Origin: Candidatus Nomurabacteria bacterium
GTDB taxonomy: Bacteria > Patescibacteriota > Minisyncoccia > Phycocordibacterales > UBA9973
Length of the DNA: 36,418 bases
Assembly (NCBI GenBank): GCA_943356375.1
Contig: CALRET010000003.1
Coordinates: 1 to 36,418 of the forward strand
Reading direction: 5' to 3'
In this document: positions 2,308 to 28,281 of the stretch, piece by piece
How the letters are laid out: every line of letters starts with the position of its first letter
Position numbering within the stretch: the stretch's first letter is position 1
The notes under the pieces: model-generated
The model's database searches: none
What the model saw: only the letters and a program-made list of their open reading frames with translations
Told to the model about the DNA's origin: nothing
Translations under genes and position numbers: made by a program

Positions 2308-4041
2308 ATGAAAAATGTATTCCGCTCTCTTATACAAACATTCCCTACGGTACGAGAAGTAAAACTTTCTTTAACTCTTTTTACTAAACGTGAGTGGATT
2401 ATTTTTTTTATTGCACTTATTATAAGTACTGCGAGTGCGCTCATCCTTGTATATAAAATAAATGCTCGGATAAGCACTGCTGTCCCAGTTCCTGGTGGAA
2501 CTATCTCAGAAGGAGTCGTTGGTGCTCCACGATTTATTAACCCGACACTCGAGATATCAGATGCTGATAAAGACATTACCTCACTTGTATATGCAGGACT
2601 TATGCAACTAGACACCAATGGAAATCCTATACCAGATCTTGCTGAAAGTTATGAAGTTTCTAAGGATGGACTCACATACACAGTAACACTCAAGAATGAT
2701 ATTTACTTTCACGATAATAAACCGGTGACCATAGACGATATTTTGTTTACTATTCAAATCATTAAAGACCCTATCCTTAAAAGTCCCAAACGAGTATCAT
2801 GGGAAGGTGTCGCTGTACAAAAAATAGATGATCAAACTGTTGAATTTACTCTTAAAAAACCGTTTGTATCTTTTCTTGAAAATCTTACTATCGGGATTCT
2901 CCCTTCTCACTTATGGAGTGAAGTTCCTATTGATCAAATGACCTTCAGCGAACTCAACACACGTGCAATTGGTGCAGGTCCATATAAAATAACCGATATA
3001 CAAAAAAAATCTTCAGGGATTATCGAATCATACTCTCTTTCTGCTTTTAAAAAATACTTGCCACACGAATCATATATACAACATATCAATTTTACATTCT
3101 TTCCAAATGAAGGAGATCTCATAAAAGCTCTCGAAAATGGTTCTGTTGACAGTGGTAGTGCGCTTTCTCCCATTAATGCAGAACGATTATTAGAATCAGG
3201 TCTTCGTATTGAAAAAACTGTACTCCCAAGATTATTTGCTCTTTTCTTCAATCAAAACAAAGCGCCACTATTCACAGATAAAAGTGTTGTACAGGCGCTG
3301 AACAGCGCTATTGATCGAAACCTATTAGTCAATGATGTTCTCGGAGGGTATGGTATTGCAACCAATAGTCCTATCCCAAAAAACAAAGATTCTGTATTCG
3401 TCGAATCTTTTACTTCACAAGAAGAACGTTTCGCAGAAGCATCGTCAATACTAACCAAAAACGGTTGGACGAAAAATGACGCAGGCGTCTTTGAAAAGAA
3501 ATCAAAGACTAGCACCATACCTCTCTCATTCTCAATAGCAACAGCAGACAACACTGAACTAAAAAAAGCAGCAGAGAGCATCAGAAAGCAACTCGAAACA
3601 TTTGGCGCTCTTGTGGAAGTTAAAATATACGATACAGGTACACTCAATCAGACCATTATCCGTCCTCGTGAATATGAAGTGCTTTTATTTGGACAAGTCA
3701 TTAGTCATGAGTCTGATTTCTTTGCATTTTGGCACTCCTCACAAAGAAATGATCCAGGGCTCAATATTGCAATGTATACAAACGCAAAAGTGGATAATTT
3801 ACTAGAGAGTGGGTTAAAAACGCTTGATCAAGGATTGCGCGATAAAAATTATAGAGCATTTGAAGCAGAAATACAGAAAGATATGCCCGCATTATTTCTG
3901 TATTCACCAGAATTCATTTATGCTATTCCTAAAAACTTAAAAGGAGTATCCATGGATCATGTCACTCTTTCATCAGATAGATTTTTAGGAGTGACGGATT
4001 GGCACATCGAGACTGATATAATTTGGAATATTTTCAAATAA
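2308..4041 (+). CDS. ABC transporter substrate-binding protein, peptide/OppA-DppA family 5
   Basis: N-terminal TM segment plus LVYAGLMQLDTNGNPIPDLAESYEVSKDGLTYTVTLKNDIYFHDNKPVTIDDILFT, a family signature. Confidence 0.9.
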   Translation: MKNVFRSLIQTFPTVREVKLSLTLFTKREWIIFFIALIISTASALILVYKINARISTAVPVPGGTISEGVVGAPRFINPTLEISDADKDITSLVYAGLMQLDTNGNPIPDLAESYEVSKDGLTYTVTLKNDIYFHDNKPVTIDDILFTIQIIKDPILKSPKRVSWEGVAVQKIDDQTVEFTLKKPFVSFLENLTIGILPSHLWSEVPIDQMTFSELNTRAIGAGPYKITDIQKKSSGIIESYSLSAFKKYLPHESYIQHINFTFFPNEGDLIKALENGSVDSGSALSPINAERLLESGLRIEKTVLPRLFALFFNQNKAPLFTDKSVVQALNSAIDRNLLVNDVLGGYGIATNSPIPKNKDSVFVESFTSQEERFAEASSILTKNGWTKNDAGVFEKKSKTSTIPLSFSIATADNTELKKAAESIRKQLETFGALVEVKIYDTGTLNQTIIRPREYEVLLFGQVISHESDFFAFWHSSQRNDPGLNIAMYTNAKVDNLLESGLKTLDQGLRDKNYRAFEAEIQKDMPALFLYSPEFIYAIPKNLKGVSMDHVTLSSDRFLGVTDWHIETDIIWNIFK

Positions 4042-26717: not shown

Positions 26718-27045
26718 CGCGGCCAACCGGGCTCGAACCGGCAACCTCTCACGTGCACTAAATCCAATATTTTCATAAAGGCGTGGACTATATCTTTACC
26801 AATAGGTGTAGAGTTCCCTTCGCCGAGAATACTCGGCATAAGTGTTCGCTACGCTCCCTTAGGTACTCCGGTATCTAGTCTCTACGGCGCCCCCGACCGT
26901 ATGTCGGGGTTCCCTCGGTATTCGCATATCCGTCACATGACGAACTTAGCCTCCACCGATATCCCAGAGAGTTTCAATCTGCCCTTTCGACAGAAAGCTG
27001 CACGAATCTACAGGCGAGTGCTCTAACCAGTTGAGCTATGGCCGC
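26718..27045 (-). tRNA. tRNA-Asp(GUC) interrupted by a group I intron; exons 27045-27010 and 26755-26718
   Basis: Joined exons: GCGGCCATAGCTCAACTGGTTAGAGCACTCGCCTGT|CACGTGAGAGGTTGCCGGTTCGAGCCCGGTTGGCCGCG; loop CTGTCAC and G73 are typical of tRNA-Asp. Confidence 0.9.
26756..27009 (-). mobile_element. Group I self-splicing intron (~254 nt, IC3-like) in the tRNA-Asp anticodon
   Basis: P1: exon CUGU pairs with intron GCAG with U.G at the splice site; R GTAGAGACTAGA; CCTAAGG; S AAAGATATAGTCCA; intron ends in G. Confidence 0.9.
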
Positions 27046-27722
27046 AAATGTTTAAACTTTTCAAAAATTACCCTCTTTCTCTTGAGATACAGTATAGGTA
27101 AATCTTTGACCATACCATTATACATAAAATCATATAATTTCAAAGAGTCTTTGGCGCTGAATTGCAAACGGGAAAAATTTCCTTTTGCTGTATATAAGGA
27201 TCCTCCCACTACGCCATGAATACGAAGTCTTTCGTGTATATCATGTAAAAATCTATAAGAACAAGAAGTAAACATTGTCTGCAACCCGAGTAAGGGAATT
27301 TTTCTTGATTTATGTAAAAATCCAACCCATACATTTCCATCTCCATCAAAATATCCCCTAATGAAATCAGGAAAATATTTTTTCGAAATATATGGTACCG
27401 CTAAACTTTTTGTTTTATTTTCTGAAAATCCAATTGCTCTTAAATCATTACACATCTCTATACTACCAATCTGTAACCGATATTGTGTCTTCTCAGTACG
27501 ATTTTTTCTTTTCCGAACACTGATTGCGTGATTTGATCCGATAATTTTTCTGATAGAAAAAAGTAGATTTCTATCTGTAATTTGAATACACCAAAATTGC
27601 CCGCCTCGTTTATTTACCGTAATATATCCGTCTGCAGCAAAAAATCCGACTACGTATGCCATGGTACCCGTCCATTTTTTAAAAAAATTCTTATTCACCT
27701 TTTTATATACAGGCATACACAC
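27036..27722 (-). CDS. LAGLIDADG homing endonuclease (two-motif, 228 aa)
   Basis: VVGFFAADGYITV and FIRGYFDGDGNVWV motifs; stop TAG lies at tRNA-Asp nt 8-10. Confidence 0.9.
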   Translation of the reverse strand: MCMPVYKKVNKNFFKKWTGTMAYVVGFFAADGYITVNKRGGQFWCIQITDRNLLFSIRKIIGSNHAISVRKRKNRTEKTQYRLQIGSIEMCNDLRAIGFSENKTKSLAVPYISKKYFPDFIRGYFDGDGNVWVGFLHKSRKIPLLGLQTMFTSCSYRFLHDIHERLRIHGVVGGSLYTAKGNFSRLQFSAKDSLKLYDFMYNGMVKDLPILYLKRKRVIFEKFKHLRP

Positions 27723-27791
27723 ATACTAGCATGTGACAGGAAAATATACTAACCATACACCCGAACAATATTGGAGAAAAAATAAGAAATG

Positions 27792-27865
27792 TGTCGACGG
27801 GTGGAATCGAACCACCGACCTTGGCTTTATGAGTGCCACGCTCTAACCGTCTGAGCTACGCCGAC
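27792..27865 (-). tRNA. tRNA-Met(CAU), elongator type (or Ile2)
   Basis: GTCGGCG...CGTCGAC acceptor, loop CTCATAA, T-arm GGTGGTTCGATTCCACC, A73. Confidence 0.85.
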
Positions 27866-27918: not shown

Positions 27919-28281
27919 TTATTTTCTCCGTTTGAAAGTCCGTATTCTATGACAGTTTGCACATACGAGTTCACATTTTTCAATTTCTTTCTTCACTTTA
28001 TCCATATTTGATGTTTGTTGGTAAAATGTGGAAATATTAAATTCTTTGTTATTACCTATATGATCAAATTCTAAGACTTCAGGATATTCCTTCCCCATAA
28101 ACCCACAGTCGGTACATTTATTATTCTGTTTATAATCTAAAATGAAATCAGAAATCTTTTTTTTAATTCTGTCAACATATCCTATATGCTTTTCTCTGTT
28201 CTTGGGATACCAAATTTCCCGCATATATTTCTTATGACGTTCTTTCCTTTTTGTTATATCTTTATAGGGCATAATACTCAT
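27919..28281 (-). CDS. HNH endonuclease
   Basis: CTDCGFMGKEYPEVLEFDHIGNNKEFNIS...CELVCANCHRIRTFKRRK, HNH with CxxC pairs. Confidence 0.85.
   Translation of the reverse strand: MSIMPYKDITKRKERHKKYMREIWYPKNREKHIGYVDRIKKKISDFILDYKQNNKCTDCGFMGKEYPEVLEFDHIGNNKEFNISTFYQQTSNMDKVKKEIEKCELVCANCHRIRTFKRRK

Follow-up and report, generated by a model that had tools for sequence, protein, structure and literature searches.

The question raised by this locus is what interrupts its tRNA-Asp(GUC) gene inside the anticodon, and how such an interruption could have arrived there. The window, i.e., the whole stretch of DNA that was analyzed, comprises 36,418 nt from a Candidatus Nomurabacteria bacterium. The tRNA-Asp(GUC) gene lies on its minus strand (27045-26718), and an intron of 254 nt (27009-26756) interrupts the anticodon between nt 35 and nt 36. 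Group I introns in bacterial tRNA genes have been described for tRNA-Leu, tRNA-fMet, tRNA-Ile and tRNA-Arg. The coordinates of all features are collected in Table 1.

Table 1. Features of the tRNA-Asp region, as window positions; the last row gives loci in relatives.
Feature	Position	Strand	Evidence or remark
5' exon of tRNA-Asp(GUC), to nt 35 (GCGGCCATAGCTCAACTGGTTAGAGCACTCGCCTGT)	27010..27045	-	ARAGORN with introns and spliced sequence; equals query 1-36 in relatives
P1 exon strand CUGU, final 4 bases of the 5' exon	27013-27010	-	
Group I intron, 254 nt, between nt 35/36, omega-G at 26756	26756..27009	-	ARAGORN, RF00028, covariation in 15 sequences, empty sites
3' exon of tRNA-Asp, C36 to G73 (CACGTGAGAGGTTGCCGGTTCGAGCCCGGTTGGCCGCG)	26718..26755	-	ARAGORN, empty sites of relatives
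Internal guide sequence GCAG, pairs with exon CUGU (P1, U.G at the splice site)	26998..27001	-	4/4 pairs invariant in 15 introns
P2 hairpin, GAAA in loop	26978..26994	-	two-sided changes at 3/6 pairs
P3 5' strand CTCTGG, partner CCGGAG 26871-26866	26964..26969	-	100% paired; 3 pairs with two-sided changes
P4-P5 domain: P4 UCGGU/ACCGA; P5 GCUAAG...UAUGC, 11-nt-receptor-like motif	26915..26959	-	both covary
P6 hairpin CCCCGAC/GTCGGGG	26891..26909	-	4/7 pairs with two-sided changes
P7 5' strand GACTA, partner TAGTC 26790-26786; putative guanosine-binding helix, P3/P7 pseudoknot	26876..26880	-	5/5 pairs invariant
P8, TACC/GGTA, CCUAAG receptor-like motif, loop extension	26797..26865	-	alignment, covariation
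P9 hairpin, GAAA loop	26764..26781	-	alignment, covariation
LAGLIDADG homing endonuclease ORF, 228 aa from GTG; ATG of MPVYKK at 27716	27036..27722	-	Pfam, AlphaFold, Foldseek
tRNA-Met(CAU), uninterrupted, 68 nt upstream of the LAGLIDADG ORF	27791..27865	-	
Free-standing HNH-like ORF, 120 aa, between two tRNA-Met genes	27919..28281	-	PF01844 21.1 bits, just under the cut-off of 21.4
Introns in tRNA-Met(CAU) of relatives	L039:2657-2960, L040:2814-3130, L042:314-614, L046:1509-1833		

The interrupted gene and its intron

ARAGORN in its default mode, i.e., without introns, called no tRNA at 27045-26718. When introns were allowed, or when the spliced sequence was used, a full tRNA-Asp(gtc) was obtained with the identical 254-nt intron ('cctgt-Intron-cacgt'). 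A search of the 147 genomes of the host family revealed uninterrupted tRNA-Asp genes in many relatives, in which positions 1-36 and 291-328 of the query are directly adjacent, e.g., 3758-3793 followed by 3794-3831 in G021:C30. Because these empty sites join the two parts of the query, both intron boundaries are fixed without a model. The identity of the tRNA and the insertion at 35/36 had been part of the original prediction and were borne out by these results, the junctions 27010/27009 and 26756/26755 to the base; the pairing of exon CUGU with intron GCAG, the U.G at the splice site and the terminal G of the intron are all present as it had described. Readings of the spliced tRNA as Val, SeC, Asn or Gln were rejected as artefacts of shifted junctions, which break the boundaries given by the empty sites. 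An intron at the identical site was found in 14 other genomes of the family, and because these share the site and the structure covaries, the intron is not a chance resemblance.

No second tRNA-Asp gene was found in the assembly of the ultra-small host genome (657 kb in 49 contigs, 90.8% complete), either with RF00005 or with ARAGORN including introns; none of the 34 other RF00005 matches is tRNA-Asp. Asp makes up about 5% of the codons in ten ORFs of the window (228 of 4569). With only this one tRNA-Asp gene in the assembly, the decoding of Asp codons should depend on splicing, as had been anticipated for a genome without a second copy, provided that no further tRNA-Asp gene hides in the missing tenth of the genome. 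An unusual T-loop, GUCAGCA (G54 and G58 for the usual U54 and A58), was noticed in the tRNA-Asp genes of L041, L042, L045, L046, L048, L212 and L219; genes of this type occur with and without the intron.

The group I nature of the intron, which had also been proposed, is supported by a match to Rfam RF00028 (35.3 bits; E=1.8e-7 for the local stretch, 6.2e-8 for the genome), by a P1-P9 structure and by compensatory changes in 15 relatives. The match stays below the RF00028 gathering score of 50, and a default scan misses the intron. The 14 other Asp introns of the host family all stay below this score as well; among the loci scanned, it is passed by several introns that relatives have in tRNA-Asn, tRNA-Tyr, tRNA-Leu and tRNA-Met. 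The gathering score is a curator's cut-off and not a defining property; the assignment rests on homologues and covariation. Other RF00028 matches in the host genome were only weak (E 0.04-0.43).

For the covariation analysis, 15 homologous introns were aligned, a P1-P9 structure was written by hand, and the pairs were then counted. Altogether 95.8% of the cells were paired, and 20 pairs had two-sided changes, which were distributed over P2, P3, P4, P5, P6, P8 and P9. The covariation score reached 0.357; shuffles gave 0.168 +/- 0.012, and slid controls did not exceed 0.144. Because the structure was drawn up from the same 15 sequences, the percentage of paired cells is biased in its favor, but two-sided changes cannot arise in this way. 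Neither P1 nor P7 varies, and both are thus uninformative in this respect; the catalytic core (P3-P8/P4-P6 with the P3/P7 pseudoknot) has covariation support in P3, P4, P6 and P8. The column pair 71-92 in the P4-P5 domain is G.U in 8 rows and non-standard in 6 (A.C there). P10, the pairing of CACG in the 3' exon with CGUG, is present in some members and is not conserved.

In the alignment, both L2 and L9 are GAAA. P5 contains CUAAG...UAUG, and P8 contains CCUAAG...UAUGG in several relatives, whereas the window has one extra U (UAUUGG) and thus an imperfect receptor. These loops and receptor-like motifs resemble, as we assume, those of Azoarcus-type IC3 introns. Based on the small size, the two GAAA loops and the 11-nt-receptor-like motifs in P5 and P8, an IC3-like subgroup is plausible; no subgroup model was applied. 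The P8 loop of the window is roughly 40-50 nt longer than in relatives, and its extension (26856-26801, minus strand), which apparently forms hairpins of its own, is absent from the other 14 family members. No HNH- or LAGLIDADG-type ORF was found inside the window intron, and none of the Asp introns contains an ORF of the type seen in Asn introns; the 355-nt Asp intron L175 has a stretch of 46 residues without obvious likeness.

The intron family and the neighboring endonuclease genes

A covariance model (R1) built from the 15 aligned introns had matches in 178 of the 384 genomes of the class. At the levels of class and phylum the R1 tallies mix several intron families, and therefore hosts were counted only for matches above 100 bits with a resolved tRNA host. 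The resolved hosts were tRNA-Asp(GUC), tRNA-Asn(GUU) and tRNA-Tyr(GUA), and the insertion was always at 35/36 with CUGU in the exon and GCAG in the intron. One guide sequence can serve all three tRNAs because their anticodons share G34-U35. A scan of named genomes with the exact pattern yielded 49 loci, and every one with an organism name belongs to Patescibacteria (Nomura-, Zambryski-, Taylor-, Yanofsky-, Lloyd-, Kaiser-, Vogel-, Doudna-, Kerfeld-, Davies-, Roizman- and Peregrinibacteria and others). The intron tree places 41 of 42 Asp introns in one group, and the host labels need 5 changes, versus a mean of 34.7 after shuffling. The exception is L082, an Asp intron that is placed in the Asn lineage.

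Several other introns were noticed in relatives. tRNA-Met(CAU) is host to a different group I intron, whose insertion site seems to follow U33 (5' exon ...GGCU; Rfam 65-76 bits). Two Ca. Vogelbacteria loci, L069 and L196, have a group I intron at 34/35 of tRNA-Leu(UAA), which ARAGORN misreads as Leu(CAA); we take this to be the site of the cyanobacterial and plastid trnL intron. At L075:1831-2013, tRNA-Thr(GGU) is interrupted at 36/37 by a group I intron of 175 nt; in this genome a tRNA-Tyr intron lies a short distance upstream of it. Many of the lower-scoring R1 matches (L118, L128, L132, L136, L144-L149, L152, L155) have flanks that read like 23S or 16S rRNA, and those that do would be group I introns of rRNA genes from this class. 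Viral contigs yielded three more distant group I introns, and the flanks of two of them, on the IMG/VR contigs L207 and L208 (65 kb and 485 kb), resemble tRNA halves.

The ORF between tRNA-Met and tRNA-Asp, which like the intron family was absent from the original prediction, overlaps the 5' end of tRNA-Asp: its stop codon TAG (27038-27036) equals U8-A9-G10 of the tRNA, and its C-terminal residues are encoded by the acceptor stem, as in most relatives (...RS, RP, RL). The protein matched Pfam LAGLIDADG_3 with 39.1 bits (cut-off 22.5), and an AlphaFold model (mean pLDDT 88) led by Foldseek to I-Tsp061I and I-AniI; the bI3 maturase was also among the best structural relatives. The catalytic Asp is present in both motifs, and nearly all copies keep both. 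The protein thus meets the criterion for a homing endonuclease, two motifs with catalytic acidic residues and a LAGLIDADG fold; cleavage itself is inferred. The dN/dS ratio was 0.17 against the nearest measured homologue and 0.08-0.31 in close pairs where it could be estimated; judged from such sequence comparisons, the gene is under purifying selection. A second LAGLIDADG clade (L229-L240) adjoins tRNA-Cys(GCA) or tRNA-Leu(UAG/GAG), mostly directly upstream, and no R1-type intron was found in these tRNA genes.

Within the host family, a close LAGLIDADG gene lies against tRNA-Asp in 12 of 15 intron-bearing genomes versus 6 of the 132 others (Fisher p=5.6e-11). As genomes are not independent, the figure by genus is fairer (5/5 versus 3/19, p=0.0013). 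The remaining three intron-bearing genomes comprise one with a 3' remnant, one without the gene and one cut by a contig end, and no LAGLIDADG gene was found at 15 intron-less tRNA-Asp loci. The pairing is specific for the host tRNA. Among unique loci, an upstream LAGLIDADG gene accompanies 30 of 41 Asp introns versus none of the 46 Asn and Tyr introns (p=1.6e-14). An HNH gene, in turn, occurs in or beside 15 of 39 Asn introns, inside the P1 loop in 11 and just upstream of the tRNA in 4, versus none of the other 48 loci (p=9.6e-7). The same partner pattern repeats in other classes of the phylum, and even the Asn-lineage intron in the tRNA-Asp of L082 has a LAGLIDADG neighbor. The distances of endonucleases and introns are correlated (Mantel r=0.415), which physical linkage alone could produce.

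The HNH-like ORF of the window is a distant homologue of the HNH genes inside tRNA-Asn introns (tblastn 41% identity, E=7.8e-12). Pfam gave no match at E 0.001 for two intron-encoded HNH proteins, and their assignment rests on the motif CxxC...HH...CxNCH and on homology to the HNH of the window. In the HNH protein tree, genes inside and outside of introns are interleaved in one supported group (98/98); the labels are too few to count events, and only the supported L114/L111/L080/L109 group was used. A second HNH homologue of the host genome (L209, G000:C16:1676-1942, minus strand) lies beside tRNA-Phe(GAA).

Possible modes of spread

An ORF-less group I intron together with a free-standing endonuclease gene adjoining the same gene has the gene arrangement of a collaborative homing pair, the definition of which was taken from F-CphI/psbA (PMC6083498). 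The functional half of that definition, cutting of the intron-less allele at the insertion site and its blocking by the intron, has only indirect backing here, from the conserved target and the association. In such a mechanism the exon CUGU would pair with GCAG of the intron, and guanosine-initiated splicing, inferred from the structure as group I chemistry, would restore GUC. As the intron itself encodes no protein, the upstream LAGLIDADG endonuclease would act in trans to spread it: the enzyme would cut an intron-less tRNA-Asp gene at or near the insertion site, repair templated by the donor would copy the intron along with the endonuclease gene and the 36-nt 5' exon, and the intron would shield the tRNA-Asp gene of the donor from cutting. 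The sister introns at the identical position of tRNA-Asn would rely on the HNH gene, whether this lies in the P1 loop or immediately upstream of the tRNA.

That a cellular tRNA gene is here the site of collaborative homing, with the LAGLIDADG protein serving the tRNA-Asp intron, is given a probability of about two in three. Support comes from the association and its host specificity, the purifying selection, the intact catalytic residues, a target that is conserved only within the tRNA, and L082, in which another intron lineage meets the LAGLIDADG neighbor of the Asp introns; the remnant or split copies beside retained introns (G076, G050, L194, L203) fit a decay after fixation. The intron, its boundaries, the single gene, the family, the host-specific pairing of endonucleases and the purifying selection were read from sequence data; splicing, cleavage, the cleavage site and co-transfer are inferred, all genomes are metagenome-assembled, and no cleavage, splicing or expression data stand behind the homing interpretation. 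Only slightly better than an even chance is seen for the wider claim that collaborative homing acts in cellular bacteria on essential tRNA genes, with one intron family among the GUN tRNAs (Asp, Asn, Tyr) and different site-specific endonucleases, LAGLIDADG for Asp and HNH for Asn. The arrangement suggests two cooperating selfish elements, intron and endonuclease, that spread through an essential gene.

The main difficulty for collaborative homing is posed by six family genomes in which an uninterrupted tRNA-Asp is flanked by a LAGLIDADG gene that looks intact, which argues against a strict need; the related genes beside tRNA-Cys and tRNA-Leu, without a detected R1-type intron, also count against it. 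In one of the six, G003, the uninterrupted tRNA-Asp matches the spliced exons of the intron-bearing G028. In the six exceptions either the enzymes are inactive or shifted in specificity, or the cut site lies elsewhere and the intron is a passenger. In the latter case the LAGLIDADG gene would target the 5' side of tRNA-Asp by itself (intronless homing), and co-conversion would carry along the intron, which lies 36 nt away and would give no protection. Both the six exceptions and the tRNA-Cys and tRNA-Leu neighbors are in line with such a passenger, but the region upstream of tRNA-Asp would be a poor target, with an identity of 27-40% compared with 93-98% in the tRNA and 98% in the 20 bp around the insertion site. 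Because conservation is confined to the tRNA, an endonuclease that spreads between genera should read the tRNA. The intron is, moreover, present in 12 of 18 genomes with the gene and in only 3 of 129 without it, and a mere passenger is thus regarded as possible, but unlikely.

The strong linkage would also be expected if the LAGLIDADG protein aided splicing of the intron, instead of or besides homing, and its structural relatives include I-AniI, which is endonuclease and maturase, as well as the bI3 maturase. A maturase role is nevertheless improbable, since in several cases an intron has been retained although the gene is absent, broken or reduced to a remnant, the six genes mentioned above occur without the intron, and both catalytic Asp residues are retained, as a nuclease requires. 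An old, vertically inherited and immobile intron that by chance resides in a tRNA cluster rich in homing genes would agree with the common grouping of nearly all Asp introns, many of which stem from related Paceibacteria. This explanation is barely tenable, because the presence of the intron is patchy within genera, with many empty sites, the endonucleases are host-specific, and a Roizmanbacteria intron nests among Nomurabacteria introns (support 100/88, albeit on a single MAG contig).

Significance and comparison with known systems

How mobile introns acquire endonucleases is an open question, and for phage collaborative homing the origin of the arrangement has been called unclear (PMC10448857). 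Here, both the separate and the fused state of one intron family are seen across many genomes, the partners are host-specific, and the affected gene is one that the cell cannot do without. If the proposed homing is true, the single-lineage HNH genes upstream of tRNA-Asn and in the P1 loop would form a natural series for the entry of a gene into an intron or its exit. The results also explain why tRNA-Asp genes are missing from Patescibacteria annotations, because ARAGORN misses the gene by default and the intron falls under the Rfam cut-off; a missed tRNA-Asp can distort claims about completeness and codon tables.

The introns of Azoarcus tRNA-Ile(CAU), cyanobacterial tRNA-Leu(UAA), tRNA-fMet and proteobacterial tRNA-Arg (IC3) are likewise small and located in anticodon arms, and their architecture, with GNRA loops and 11-nt-receptor-like motifs, is presumably similar to that of the window intron. 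The family described here differs in its hosts Asp, Asn and Tyr, in its position at 35/36 and in an Asp lineage that stays below the Rfam gathering score. As far as the open-access literature shows, the three hosts are new for bacterial group I introns, and position 35/36 was not found described there either. Most known group I introns of bacterial and plastid tRNAs are at 37/38 (PMC4033280), and the tRNAscan-SE 2.0 paper treats fMet and Ile2 cases.

For CPR bacteria, group I introns with homing genes have been reported in 16S and 23S rRNA (PMC11270868). These come from the same bacterial group and also involve LAGLIDADG proteins, but their hosts are rRNAs and the endonuclease is encoded inside the intron; the main text of that paper does not mention tRNA. 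CPR tRNA genes can carry (group I) introns, according to PMC8172020, PMC8694215 and PMC9698310, and the second reports introns in Gly(CCC) and Thr(TGT). In the passages found in the three papers neither tRNA-Asp, tRNA-Asn or tRNA-Tyr nor the site 35/36 nor neighboring endonucleases are named.

Collaborative homing is known from F-CphI with the psbA intron of cyanophage S-PM2 and from T3/T7-like phages (PMC6083498, PMC3984707, PMC10448857), and no description outside of phages was found in the open-access literature. In contrast to the phage systems, the gene concerned here encodes a tRNA of a cell and not a phage protein, the enzyme is of the LAGLIDADG family, the endonuclease gene overlaps the 5' exon, some endonuclease genes lie beside intron-less sites, and cleavage at the insertion site is only inferred. 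A known intron-encoded endonuclease homes into the same target region, the anticodon region of a tRNA, but its gene is inside the intron, whereas the LAGLIDADG gene is outside; the tRNA-Asn introns with HNH genes are the closer parallel to that system. New here is the homing gene that is external to the intron, overlaps the tRNA and is paired with a tRNA-Asp intron.
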